Made by a program: the position numbers and the translations under genes
In this document: positions 6,932 through 44,062 of the stretch, piece by piece
How the letters are laid out: each line of letters begins with the position of its first letter
Numbering within the stretch: position 1 is the first letter of the stretch
Source: Rubripirellula tenax
Lineage (GTDB): Bacteria; Planctomycetota; Planctomycetia; Pirellulales; Pirellulaceae
Assembly (NCBI RefSeq): GCF_007860125.1
Contig: NZ_SJPW01000002.1
Coordinates: 124,001-188,000, forward strand
Reading direction: 5' to 3'
DNA: 64,000 nt
Notes under the pieces: model-generated
What the model was told of the DNA's origin: nothing
Seen by the model: only the letters and a program-made list of their open reading frames with translations
Database searches by the model: none

Positions 6932-9162
6932 CTAGGCCATGCCATTGCACTCAGCGGACGGGTCAGGCTCGAAATGCCCGACGATCGGCGCCAGCCGGAA
7001 TGTGACTAGCTTTGGCGACCAAGCCGGAAGCAACTCGATCTCTCCGGGATTGGAATAGACCAATGCTTCGGTCACCATCGCGGGCACTCCGCAGAGCACG
7101 TCCGTGTTCGGAAGCCAACCGGGATTATGCAGCGTGATCAGGTTCGGTTGGATGTAGTCGTAACGCATCAACGTAAACAGGTTTTGCCAAAACAACTGTG
7201 GGTACTTGGTTCGTGCGGCACAAAAGGAACGCACCGCGAAACAATGACCGGACCAATCCTGCGGAAGACGTTGCTCAAGGGCAACTCGCATCGCGGTCAT
7301 GAAATCCGGATCACTCTCCCAGTTCAATTCATGCGCCGGCCAAACAGGATAACTGTGCGACATGTGGCGGTGATCGAAATCCTCCTTGAATCCGGCATAG
7401 GCCCATTCTTGAAACGCTCCTTCTTGATCAACTCGATAGGACGGGAACTTCTCAAGCATGGCCTTCAGTTCGACCACTCGGTTTGGCTTGATCTTTAAGT
7501 CCTCATAGGCCTGAACCAGATTGCTGATCGCCTGCTTACCCGCAGCGATATCTTGCACGGCGTTGATCGACTGGGCAGGCAAATGCTCTGGTGAGTAAGA
7601 GGGCACGAAAACGAATTTACCGTTTTCATCTACCTCGGTCAGAAAGTCTTCATAGAAGAGCACGTTCTTTTCCATCAACGGCAAGGCGTGCTTCTTCAGG
7701 AATTCTTGGTCGCCCGTGACAAGATAGTGTTCGTAAATCGGATAGATCAGCCACGCCGCGCCCGCCGTCCAGCAATGCCCCGGCCATTTACCAAAGTGCG
7801 TGTGATAGTTTTCTCGCCCGGACGTACGTGCACCCGACGTGATCCCGCGGAAGCCGTAGATGTTTTTCGCATTCACCTCCCACGAGGGCGCGATCTCCTC
7901 GATCAGGTTCAAGTAGGCGGCTATCGATTCCGGCAACCCGCAAGTACTGGCCCCGGCAATCTGCTGGTTTAGGTTGGTGTCGAGCGTGAAGTCGTTGGAC
8001 CACGCTGGTTTGTGATTTCCGTTCCACACCCCGCTCAACGTCGGCGGCAGTTCTCCGCTGGAAGAAAGCAGAGCATAGCGTCCCACGTTGAACATCTTCT
8101 GAAGGAAAGCCGGAAGGATGTTGTCGGCTTGATGCTGCTTCGCAATCAGCTCTTCGGAAGACAAATAGCGATCGTCCGAGTTGTCCAGGTCGATCGTCAT
8201 CCGCTGCATTGCGGTCCGATGCAGCGTTTCGTGACGCATCAGCAAGCTTCCGTAGTCAGCCGGCAGGCGTGAAAGATCTGCTTGGATGTCGTTCAGCTTG
8301 GAATCTTCAAAGCTCTCAAGATCGGTAATTCGAGTCAGCAGAAGAATCCGTTTTGCGTTGGAACATCGTACCACACCGTCGACCTGTTCAGTCGCCCCGC
8401 CGTCGCAAACGACACGTGTCGTGCCTTCGTAGCCTCGCGGGGTTTTGTTGTACTTGCATCGCGCCGTGATCCAATTCTTTGACAGGTCCGCGTCGATTCG
8501 TTCGACGTCATCCGTCAATCCGTGCGACTGATCCACCACGTTGATATCCAGACTGACCGGCAAGCCATCGGGCGATTCAAACAGCTGTACAATCACGTTA
8601 TCTTTGCGGGACACAAATGTCTTATTGGCCCAGCGGCCCTCGGCGCTGCGAAACCGGACGACGACCTCTCCCGTCATGAAATCAACCGTTCGCAAATAGT
8701 CTTCGACATCGCCCGTATCCTGACGCTCAATGGTCATCGTGTAGGCCGGATGGTAAGCCGGTGTATTGACGATTTCCGGATGGCCGTTGGCAGCCATGGC
8801 CTGGCGCCAATGATCGAATGCCTGGCGAGACCTGCCTTCCAGCATCAATCGCCGTACTTCAGGCAATGCATCGGAGGTCACGGGCGGCAGTGGACGCTCA
8901 TCCAGGAACGGTCGGAAAGACGTTCGTGGTTGAAGACGATTCTTTCTTGATAGGGCTGGCCCAAGACAGTCGCCCCCATCACGCCATTGCCCGTCACCAG
9001 GCCGCCATCCCATCGGTTTGCCGGTTGCGTGCTGCACATACCCGGAAGACTCATGACAGCAGCCCGCTTGTCCAGCGGAATGGGAGTCCCCGCTTTGGCT
9101 GAAACGATTCCGCCCAACGCGATGGTAGTGACGAGGATAAAAACAGCCGACCGGGCTTTCAT
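6932..9162 (-). pseudogene. GH95-type alpha-L-fucosidase, frameshifted
   Basis: Glycoside hydrolase family 95 proteins remove terminal alpha-L-fucose from glycans by inversion. The true N-terminus starts at 9162 with a signal peptide (AVFILVTTIALGGIVSAKAG) and the GH95 opening NRWDGGLVTGNGVMGATVLG and ERIVFNHERL. That frame hits a stop near 8878, while the rest of the enzyme (FLDERPLPP, LPEVRRLMLEGRSRQAFDHW onward) is in another frame that overlaps it. A one-base shift between about 8905 and 8925, at GTCTTTCC on the coding strand, is therefore required. The body carries TLDTNLNQQ, where family members have catalytic Asn residues, and RHMSHSYPVWPAHEL. The tail after ELLPAW looks shorter than usual. 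Recent mutation or sequence error are both possible. Confidence 0.8.
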
Positions 9163-41150: not shown

Positions 41151-41177
41151 TTTTCATACCTCCATCTTATTACCAAA
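41151..41177 (+). repeat. Half copy of the palindrome
   Basis: 27 bases matching one arm of the palindromes at 42107 and 43987 with three mismatches. No partner arm lies nearby, so the element is a decayed or half copy directly behind the sulfatase stop. Confidence 0.6.
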
Positions 41178-41201
41178 GTTCATTGGTGAGGAGATTGCTA
41201 A

Positions 41202-41266
41202 GAAAATGGAGGTAAGGAAATAAAACCCCAACACCCACGACTCTTCATTTCCTTACCTCCATTTTC
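41202..41266. repeat. Palindrome A, upstream of the nuclease gene
   Basis: Perfect 20-bp arms (41202-41221 and 41247-41266) around a 25-base loop. Arms contain GGAGGTAAGGAAAT. It stands 41 bp before the start of the PD-(D/E)XK gene. Both strands carry a Shine-Dalgarno-like GGAGG. Confidence 0.85.
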
Positions 41267-41307
41267 GCACCAAAAATTCCCCCGACACTTTTCCCTGGCA
41301 AACTGCA

Positions 41308-42114
41308 ATGCCCGTCCGATGTGCTCATTCGATTGCAAACCTTTCCACGGACGAGTTCGGTGAACTTGATTACCGGGTGATGGGGCATGCGTTTGATATG
41401 CACAACGAACTGGGGCGATTGGCGGATGAACGAATTTACCAAGCCGATCTAGCTGCTCGGATTGAGACGACCGGCATGAGGACTCGTCGCGAGTTCAAGA
41501 TCCAACTTTCGCATCAGTCGTTTTGCAAATCGTTGTTCGTTGACTTCGTCGTCGCGGATCGGGGTGTGTATGAGTTGAAGGCAGTCAAGAAGATCACGGA
41601 CGCTCACCTTGGGCAGTTGTTGACGTACCTGCTGTTACTCGATTTGTCGCATGGGAAAATCATTGACTTCGGATCTTCCGAAGTGGAATCCAAATTCGTC
41701 AACGCCACGCTCGACTCAGAATCGCGTCGAGCGTTTCGAATCAATGCATCCGACTATCGCGGCGAGGACCATTTTCGAGATCTCGTGATCGAACTGCTTC
41801 GAGATTGGGGAACCTCGCTGACCTTGTCGCTTTACATCGAAGCAATCGAACACCTGCTCGGCGGAAACCAAGTGGCCACTGCGATGCTACCGCTCAATCG
41901 AAACGGCGTTCCCCTGGGCAACCAGCGTTTTCAGCTCGCTTCAAGCGACACCGCGTTTAGGTTGACCGCAATGAAACAAGGCCTTGACGCATTTCAGAAA
42001 CAGCTGTCGAGGCTCGTGCTGCACAGTCCACTTCAAGCGATCCACTGGGTCAATATCGCCCACGCTTTAGTCACCTTTCGTACGATCCGCCGCGCATCGT
42101 GCAAAGTTTGGTAA
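41308..42114 (+). CDS. GxxExxY-type PD-(D/E)XK nuclease-fold protein
   Basis: 268 residues, soluble. FGELDYRVMGHAFDMHNELG and DERIYQADLAAR are the GxxExxY family's opening, though the Gly of the name motif is displaced (LADERIY). The nuclease core is LFVDFVVADRGVYELKAVKK with Asp79, Glu89 and Lys91 in D-x(n)-E-x-K arrangement, followed by HLGQLLTYLLLLDLSHGKII. About 120 residues then follow that exist only in the longer planctomycete form (LIELLRDWGT-like, SPLQAIHWVNI). The family is annotated as a nuclease fold but its job is unknown. The stop codon TAA is part of the left arm of palindrome B, and palindrome A precedes the start. Confidence 0.85.
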   Translation: MPVRCAHSIANLSTDEFGELDYRVMGHAFDMHNELGRLADERIYQADLAARIETTGMRTRREFKIQLSHQSFCKSLFVDFVVADRGVYELKAVKKITDAHLGQLLTYLLLLDLSHGKIIDFGSSEVESKFVNATLDSESRRAFRINASDYRGEDHFRDLVIELLRDWGTSLTLSLYIEAIEHLLGGNQVATAMLPLNRNGVPLGNQRFQLASSDTAFRLTAMKQGLDAFQKQLSRLVLHSPLQAIHWVNIAHALVTFRTIRRASCKVW

Positions 42115-42193
42115 GAAAATGGAGGTAAGAAAATCCCAGCACCGATCACCCAATTCTCTCTTTATATTTTCTTACCTCCATTTTCTTACCAAA
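42107..42193. repeat. Palindrome B, overlaps the nuclease stop
   Basis: Perfect 28-bp arms (42107-42134, 42166-42193) with a 31-base loop. Each arm contains the 11-mer GGTAAGAAAAT twice, three bases apart. TAA 42112-42114 inside the left arm is the stop of the preceding gene. The arm sequence matches palindrome C almost fully. Confidence 0.9.
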
Positions 42194-42223
42194 ACCCCGT
42201 CCTCCATTCGCTTCACTGACGAC

Positions 42224-43954
42224 ATGCCTCTTCTTACAAAACAATTGATTGCCTCACTCTTGGTGATCGTCATCGCCTGTTTGGGCTGTGATCGTTGCCT
42301 GGGTCAGTCTGCCGATGCGATCTTCGTTGGTGGTGACATCATCACCGTCAATGACGTGTCGCCGTCGGCGGAAGCCATTGCGATTCGTGATGGCAAAATC
42401 GTTGCGGTGGGCGATCGCGACGCGGTGATGCAGACCCGCGGGCCTGAGACAAAGATTGTTGATCTGGATGGTCAAACGATGCTGCCGGGATTCATCGACG
42501 GTCACAGCCATTTTATCAACGCTCTTTCCGTCGCCAATCAAGCCAACGTCTATCCGCCGCCGTTCGGGCCGGGTGATTCCGTCGACGCGATTGTCAGCGC
42601 CGTTAAGACGCTGCAAGCCGAGCAGCAGTTTTCGCCCGGCGAATTGATCATGGCGTATGGCTATGACGACAATGCTTTGCCAGCGGATCGCAAGTTGACA
42701 GCGGCTGACTTGGATGCGGCGTTCGCCGACAACCCCGTCATTGTTCAACATGTGTCCCTGCACGGTGCCGTGCTGAACTCGGCCGCACTGAAGAAATACG
42801 CAATCACGGCAGAAACCGCCACGCCGCCCGGTGGGATCATCCTGCGGAAACCGGGCACGAACGAACCCGAGGGCTTGTTGATGGAAACGGCGTACCTGCC
42901 AATTTTTGAGTCGCTTGAAAAACCCAAGGGTGAGGCTCTCATCCAAGCCATCCAACGTGGACAGCAAATCTACGCTGAAGCGGGCATCACGACGTCTCAT
43001 GAGGGCTCGTCGACTGCGTTGGATGTGCAGATTTTGAACCGTGCCGCCACCAACGGGGAACTTTACATCGACGTCATTGCGTTTCCGTTCATCACGGAAC
43101 TCGATCGGGTACTGACGTCGTTTCTGGCCAATCAATTCGGCAAGTACAACCAACGATTCAAACTTGGCGGCGTCAAAATCACGATCGACGGTTCACCCCA
43201 GGGCAAGACCGCGGAGTTCACGACGCCGTATCTGACCGGCGGCCCCGGCGGCGAACCACGTTGGCGAGGCGAACCGACGTTTCCGATTGAAACGTTCGAC
43301 GGCATGGTGAAGAAAGTTTACGACGCGGGCTTGCCGTTGATCGTGCATTGTAATGGCGACGCGGCGATCGACCATCTGTTGGCGGCGCACGAAAAGGCGT
43401 TGGGCGACAAGAAGTCCGACGATCATCGAACGGGCATCATTCACTGCCAATTCGTGCGGAAGGATCAACTCGACAAGATCGCCGAGTATAAGCTGTTCCC
43501 TTCGTTCTACACCGAGCACACGTACTTCTTCGCGGCCACGCACATTCAAAACCGCGGGCTGGAACAGGCATCGTTTCTAAGCCCGCTGAAATCATCGCTG
43601 GATCGAGGCATCCGGTTCGCTAACCACACCGATTTCAACGTCGCTCCGATCGACCAAATGTTCGTGATCTGGTCGGCGGTCAATCGCATGTCACGTGAAG
43701 GCGAAGTGCTTGATCCAGAACAGCGGATTTCAGCGATCGAAGCGATCAAGGCGGTGACTATTCACCCGGCGTATTGGTGTCGCGAGAAAGATCGCAAGGG
43801 ATCGCTCGAAGTCGGCAAACTGGCCGACTTTGTGATCTTGGACAAGAACCCGCAGAAGGTCGACCCAATCGCGATCAAGGACATTCGTGTGATAAAAACA
43901 ATCAAGGAAGGCGTGACTGTTTTTGCGTTGCCCAATCCAAGGAGACCAGAGTGA
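42224..43954 (+). CDS. Exported amidohydrolase (YtcJ-like)
   Basis: 576 residues. ATG 42224 is chosen because a lipoprotein-type signal follows (LLVIVIACLGC); the frame open upstream only reads through palindrome B. The amidohydrolase core: DAIFVGGDIITVND, MLPGFIDGHSHF (metal-binding H-x-H), GVKITIDGSPQGKTAEF, VHCNGDAAIDHLLAAH, HTDFNVAP, and a final LADFVILDKNPQKVDP. YtcJ-like metal hydrolases act on amide-type bonds; the substrate is unknown. The gene runs in the same direction as the sulfatases, 110 bp past the nuclease stop. Confidence 0.88.
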   Translation: MPLLTKQLIASLLVIVIACLGCDRCLGQSADAIFVGGDIITVNDVSPSAEAIAIRDGKIVAVGDRDAVMQTRGPETKIVDLDGQTMLPGFIDGHSHFINALSVANQANVYPPPFGPGDSVDAIVSAVKTLQAEQQFSPGELIMAYGYDDNALPADRKLTAADLDAAFADNPVIVQHVSLHGAVLNSAALKKYAITAETATPPGGIILRKPGTNEPEGLLMETAYLPIFESLEKPKGEALIQAIQRGQQIYAEAGITTSHEGSSTALDVQILNRAATNGELYIDVIAFPFITELDRVLTSFLANQFGKYNQRFKLGGVKITIDGSPQGKTAEFTTPYLTGGPGGEPRWRGEPTFPIETFDGMVKKVYDAGLPLIVHCNGDAAIDHLLAAHEKALGDKKSDDHRTGIIHCQFVRKDQLDKIAEYKLFPSFYTEHTYFFAATHIQNRGLEQASFLSPLKSSLDRGIRFANHTDFNVAPIDQMFVIWSAVNRMSREGEVLDPEQRISAIEAIKAVTIHPAYWCREKDRKGSLEVGKLADFVILDKNPQKVDPIAIKDIRVIKTIKEGVTVFALPNPRRPE

Positions 43955-43986
43955 AGCACACCTCTGATCGCGTCTCGTGAAAAATC

Positions 43987-44062
43987 TGGCAAGAAAATGG
44001 AGGTAAGAAAATAAAAACTTCCATGCGCACCGCTTGATTTTCTTACCTCCATTTTCTTACCA
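43987..44062. repeat. Palindrome C
   Basis: 26-base arms (43987-44012, 44037-44062) with a single mismatch, loop of 24 bases unlike those of A and B. Lies between the amidohydrolase and the HAD-META gene, so in an intergenic site just as A and B are. Confidence 0.88.

Follow-up and report, generated by a model that had tools for sequence, protein, structure and literature searches.

Palindromic repeats paired with a GxxExxY-family PD-(D/E)XK gene in Rubripirellula tenax suggest a REPtron-like selfish element

Closest described systems and layout of the locus

Arrangements in which a low-copy enzyme gene is flanked by palindromes have been described as REP/RAYT (TnpA-REP) systems, REPtrons, REPINs and BIMEs (PMC2817692, PMC3116915, PMC8266576), and in REP/RAYT, enzyme and palindrome are reported to have co-evolved (PMC8266576). 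The locus considered here lies in a window of 64,000 nucleotides of Rubripirellula tenax DNA (the whole stretch that was analysed; contig NZ_SJPW01000002.1, positions 124,001 to 188,000), and the element to which it belongs resembles REP/RAYT in having a separate palindrome for each enzyme type and, in some genomes, many dispersed cognate intergenic palindromes, alternating orientations and tandem arrays. It differs in that the enzyme is a PD-(D/E)XK protein (PF13366), whereas that of REP/RAYT is an HuH Y1_Tnp protein, in that the arms consist of two tandem units of 11-12 nt with no GTAG/CGTC-type foot motif noted, and in that the palindromes are often only local. As the flanked gene is not an HuH transposase, the element was not regarded as a member of REP/RAYT. 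With IS200/IS605 and other hairpin-ended insertion sequences it shares a gene flanked by hairpins that are recognisable as single strands, but it is without an HuH tyrosine transposase, and its hairpins have the same sequence on both sides and are also found as solitary copies elsewhere. Imperfect palindromes between successive genes (in the window, A-gene-B-gene-C) are likewise reminiscent of integron attC sites, from which the element is distinguished by arms that have direct units inside them and hardly differ from copy to copy, and by arrays with a period of ~200-360 bp that often seem gene-free. The element thus departs from the known systems both in its class of enzyme and in the build of its repeats, although it shares their genetic logic. 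In the open full-text literature (bioRxiv lying outside it and subscription journals being sparsely represented), no account of the element was found, nor any title or abstract on GxxExxY function. A survey of prokaryote satellites counts satellites in Rhodopirellula baltica and was not found to name a nuclease (PMC6749651). The explanation favoured here, with a probability of roughly 0.64, is that this is a small selfish element akin to a REPtron, whose PD-(D/E)XK nuclease recognises and spreads its cognate palindromes.

An earlier note on this DNA had described three palindromes and one half copy with a common arm, two of the palindromes bracketing a gene that encodes D79, E89 and K91 and the second of these supplying the stop codon of that gene, and all of this was recovered when the locus was re-measured. 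Hairpin A (41195-41273) is located at the upstream gene border, with arms at 41195-41224 and 41244-41273 and a perfect core of 20 bp (41202-41221/41247-41266). Hairpin B (42107-42193), at the downstream border, has perfect arms in which 28 of 28 bp are complementary (42107-42134/42166-42193), and hairpin C (43987-44062) is an extra copy past the next gene, with arms (43987-44015/44034-44062) matching at 93%. The loops of A, B and C were again found to be 25, 31 and 24 bases long, those of A and C being core loops. The half copy (41151-41176, minus strand) is a single degenerate arm without a partner of its own, matches the reference arm at 77% and could pair with the left arm of A. Between A and B lies the GxxExxY gene (41308-42114, plus strand), the TAA stop codon of which (42112-42114) falls inside the left arm of B. 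The gene between hairpins B and C is an amidohydrolase gene (42119-43954 frame).

Every arm at the locus is composed of two tandem 11-12 nt units, GGTAAGAAAAT-GGA-GGTAAGAAAAT, and the arm pattern, with no more than three mismatches allowed, was matched six times in the window, with 0 matches expected from 100 shuffles. Both arms of hairpin A carry GGAAAT/ATTTCC where B and C have GAAAAT/ATTTTC, a common change indicating that the arms within one hairpin vary together. When folded as single-stranded DNA, hairpins A, B and C gave z values of -8.6, -11.3 and -9.9, respectively. In the host's 7.99-Mb genome, the 12-mer AATGGAGGTAAG was present at six places, all of them in this locus, and a looser genome search added one solitary arm (G000:C3:4678, two mismatches). 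The element, present in this genome as three hairpins and a half copy plus the solitary arm elsewhere, is probably of low copy number or mostly dead there. The two-unit build of the arms, their near-confinement to the locus and the second, degenerate nuclease-like domain of the protein had been overlooked in the otherwise accurate earlier description.

The long-form GxxExxY protein

To our knowledge, there is no agreed function for GxxExxY proteins. The window gene, which encodes 268 amino acids, is a full member of the family, scoring above both curated cut-offs (PF13366, PDDEXK_3, 74.5 bits against a cut-off of 22; TIGR04256, 70.4 bits against a cut-off of 35), and a Pfam scan of the gene gave PDDEXK_3 only, with no Y1_Tnp (HuH) domain. 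What sets it and the other long forms apart from the family as described is a fused second, inactive domain, and no family description found mentions palindromes. Residues ~14-132 make up the PD-(D/E)XK domain with D79, E89, K91 and Q103, all four of which are invariant in 31 of 31 long forms, while residues ~154-261 form a further domain that has the same topology but lacks the catalytic residues. AlphaFold (pLDDT 96, pTM 0.90) predicted two PD-(D/E)XK folds in tandem, the elements of each unit following the order helix-helix-strand-strand-strand-helix-strand-strand, and a profile comparison of the two halves aligned 101 columns, weakly (E 0.005 for one pair, probability 7%). As the fold order is alike in both units and the second is without the catalytic letters, the long form was taken to be, in all likelihood, an active nuclease domain to which an inactive copy has been fused. 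A structure search returned generic PD-(D/E)XK relatives, of which SSO0001 was the best (Z 8.4 over 101 residues, rmsd 3.7), with R.SwaI, Cas4 and Holliday junction resolvases scoring below it, and it pointed to no function beyond the generic PD-(D/E)XK fold. The dN/dS ratios of two orthologue pairs (0.10 and 0.07) indicate that the long-form gene is under purifying selection. A search of plasmids for long forms gave two weak matches, one of them annotated GxxExxY. At one locus (L129; G396:C1:3635219), the long-form gene is broken by a stop codon and the hairpins are retained.

Pairing of gene and repeat across relatives

A profile built from eight long forms gave 30 matches in 21 of the 398 genomes of the class; four more loci brought the number to 34, and with L130 excluded as being of the short-form type, 33 long-form loci were retained. 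At the borders of these genes, hairpins of differing sequence were found to share one design, in which GRCARRAnnATG occurs twice, 13-18 nt apart. A two-unit match of at least 16 bits no more than 300 bp from the gene was present at 30 of the 33 long-form loci, compared with 8 of 155 control ORF flanks taken from the same contigs at a distance of over 2.5 kb (Fisher p 4e-24), the unit PWM having been built from units read by eye and applied leave-one-out with near-identical partners also dropped. Two long forms found later, in other families of the phylum, both carry the repeat as judged by eye, in the form GGCAAAATGATTGAGGGCAAAATGAT at L245 and GGCAAGAAAATGGGGGCAAGAAAAT at L246. Long-form orthologues without palindromes, which had been named in the earlier note as evidence that would speak against it, were therefore the exception. 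The repeats at long-form loci are mostly inverted pairs, and in many loci the downstream arm begins ~-30 to +15 nt from the stop codon. An inverted-repeat score of at least 14 near the gene was reached in 18 of 31 cases versus 38 of 146 (Mann-Whitney p 1.7e-4), a difference that is significant but weaker than that of the motif test, as the detector allowed no gaps and hairpins of other kinds are frequent. From these comparisons, which are of sequences alone, the PD-(D/E)XK gene can with high confidence be considered paired with its own palindromes.

The positions of the GRCARRAnnATG unit that vary most are 5, 6, 8 and 9. For 30 loci, the arms of which were selected by eye, the distance between proteins was correlated with the distance between arms (Mantel r 0.449, 0 of 20,000 permutations); the value was 0.431 (0 of 10,000) in a partial Mantel test that took in GC difference and host family, and 0.360 (0 of 10,000) with near-identical pairs removed. 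Three long forms in genome G409 have three arm types, as do three in genome G034. Arms are common to L106 and L107, and to L120 and L121, across species, and the arm type of the window is also present at L110 and L112, in two other genera, where protein identity is 57-58%. As far as can be read from the DNA, each gene thus has its own arm sequence, and the arms track the protein and not the host. An automated version of the Mantel test, in which flank similarity was used (r 0.42 at the gene), was dropped because control distances gave nearly equal correlations (0.33-0.38).

It could be argued that the palindromes are moved by an HuH/RAYT transposase acting in trans, or multiply by replication slippage, and that the GxxExxY gene is carried along between hairpins as a passenger or as cargo. 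Y1_Tnp genes were indeed present in 16 of 16 genomes examined, slippage can produce tandem arrays, and genes other than GxxExxY also lie between hairpins, namely the amidohydrolase gene of the window and a vapBC-like segment at L106. A passenger would not, however, predict an arm that goes with the GxxExxY protein instead of the host genome, and the position of the arms at the gene border is constrained. Furthermore, Y1_Tnp genes are present in G449, which has 0 arms, and of the Y1_Tnp places listed for G034 a single weak match (C8:99393) lies within 1 kb of one of the arms listed, the others being farther from those listed arms. An HuH enzyme in trans cannot account for arms that follow the GxxExxY protein, though it may be the motor of their movement; on the whole, this explanation was considered improbable.

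A similarly low probability was assigned to a regulatory role of the hairpins, in which the protein would bind them as operators, terminators or mRNA stabilisers and the dispersed copies would form a regulon or serve as 3'-end elements. Such a role would fit the mostly intergenic location of the dispersed copies, several of which stand directly after stop codons, and the stop codon within the arm of hairpin B in the window. However, a scan for intrinsic terminators (a T run behind a G+C-rich stem) returned nothing terminator-like at any of the three hairpins of the window, and all Rfam matches were to microRNA models and under the gathering score (best 35.4 bits versus 60.5). Mismatches in the gene-sense hairpins were G-T in 13 cases and A-C in 26, which, although the numbers are small, is opposite to the outcome of selection for a sense-strand RNA stem. 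In addition, the gene has sites on either side, these are multiplied in tandem arrays that include spacers, and a regulator need not keep an invariant nuclease active site.

GxxExxY proteins were detected in 33 of 60 related genomes. The pattern ACCACRRATN{0,3}ACACRRAT was found in 16 of the 33 relatives that have a GxxExxY gene, against 1 of the 27 that have none (p 1e-4, ancestry ignored), and the short-form arm pattern reached up to 65 copies, in G035. Hairpin excess counted per gene (8 of 25 versus 3 of 25) was not significant (p 0.17), and extension of the palindrome link to the short forms is therefore likely but weaker than the link established for the long forms. In short-form arms, two or three units are spaced 8-11 nt apart, compared with two units 13-17 nt apart in long-form arms, and it is possible that half-sites correspond, in how many there are and how they are spaced, to the number of nuclease domains. 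Short-form GxxExxY genes at L049, L039 and L042 lie beside repeated three-unit hairpins, and the hairpins at L039 and L049 are tandem arrays of ~210-370 bp units.

Dispersal of the palindromes and a possible route of spread

One arm of G034, GACAGAAANATTGGTGCGACAGAAANATT, was counted 168 times genome-wide, with 0 matches for the reversed-pattern control. These arms stand in arrays and alone; many are paired facing outward, 112-147 bp from one another, and such pairs fold into long hairpins. When the pattern was shortened slightly, 161 arms were counted in G034, 6 in the sister species G450 and 0 in the sister species G449; the variation in occupancy on which the idea of a spreading element had been made to depend was thus present. 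At a first site with the same genes on both sides, the intervening DNA was 1.87 kb long in G034 versus 0.40 kb in G450, and at a second such site it was 1.8 kb versus 0.14 kb, a difference that includes a gene. In G377, which hosts an element closely related to that of the window, 21 window-type arms are spread over ~18 contigs, mostly intergenic by inspection. Several dispersed copies are placed just past stop codons, and arrays with a period of 162-363 bp lie beside several long-form genes. Spread into intergenic sites, as proposed in the earlier note, is therefore consistent with the distribution in G034 and G377; in the window's own genome, one solitary arm apart, no dispersal past this locus was found.

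Filled and empty sites were also compared for duplicated target bases, which the earlier note had looked to as a mark of insertion. No target-site duplication was found between G034 and its sister species, which are too diverged between genes for one to be read, the boundaries not being base-exact. Among the relatives examined in the window's genus, no clean empty site was found, as none of them has preserved synteny around the sulfatase/amidohydrolase/HAD block. Homing or drive, in which the nuclease would cut chromosomes or sites that have no hairpin, the hairpin or gene would be copied in during repair, and the palindromes would be targets or protection marks, was considered the least probable explanation of all, for although PD-(D/E)XK homing endonucleases exist and I-Bth0305I appeared weakly in the fold search (E 1.1), the copies occupy unrelated intergenic sites and neither the window's genus nor the sister species of G034 offered clean empty sites that would define a target.

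Under the favoured explanation, that of a REPtron-like element spread by its own PD-(D/E)XK nuclease, the long-form protein would bind both tandem units of an arm and would nick or cut the hairpin in its extruded form or where a replication fork leaves it single-stranded. Host repair and replication would then copy the broken palindrome, either beside itself, giving rise to arrays, or to other intergenic sites. Pairing and dispersal can be seen in the genomes compared, and cutting and movement are what we infer from them. The earlier proposal of a nuclease-plus-palindrome system analogous to REP/RAYT is accordingly supported as regards pairing, dispersal and occupancy, and movement by the protein stays conjectural. 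A broader proposal, to which an even chance was given, is that the GxxExxY family, in its short and long forms, supplies the enzymes of widespread selfish bacterial palindromic repeats, each nuclease cutting and multiplying a cognate hairpin of tandem half-sites, and that a REPtron evolved independently on PD-(D/E)XK. If true, this would constitute a second, independent solution to the spreading of REP-like repeats without an HuH transposase, and would account for dispersed hairpin families (e.g., ACCACRGAT...ACACRGAT) in planctomycete-type genomes. The cognate palindrome provides a testable substrate for the GxxExxY family, and the many gene-arm pairs represent a natural data set for a protein-DNA recognition code.

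Several minor observations were made at individual loci. An exact 22-mer match in Archaeoglobus (L052) was rejected as chance, the hairpin and the long-form gene both being absent there. At L051 (JAHBXS010000003.1, 7090-7150), a window-type hairpin with related but different letters in its left arm was seen, with no long-form gene in the 8-kb stretch examined. HicA/HicB-like frames, recognised by eye, follow directly after the downstream arm of the long-form gene at L108. At L106 (gene-sense ~7930-8990), a segment of ~700 bp with a toxin-antitoxin pair that is vapB/vapC-like by eye lies between near-identical copies of the downstream hairpin and flank, and its sister-species counterpart L107 has one hairpin and no vapB/vapC-like insert. 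Among the dispersed copies of G377 (L228-L244), several hairpins have in their loops a portion of another type of repeat, CTCACGCGAAGGCGCGAAG..., such that palindromes are nested in palindromes.
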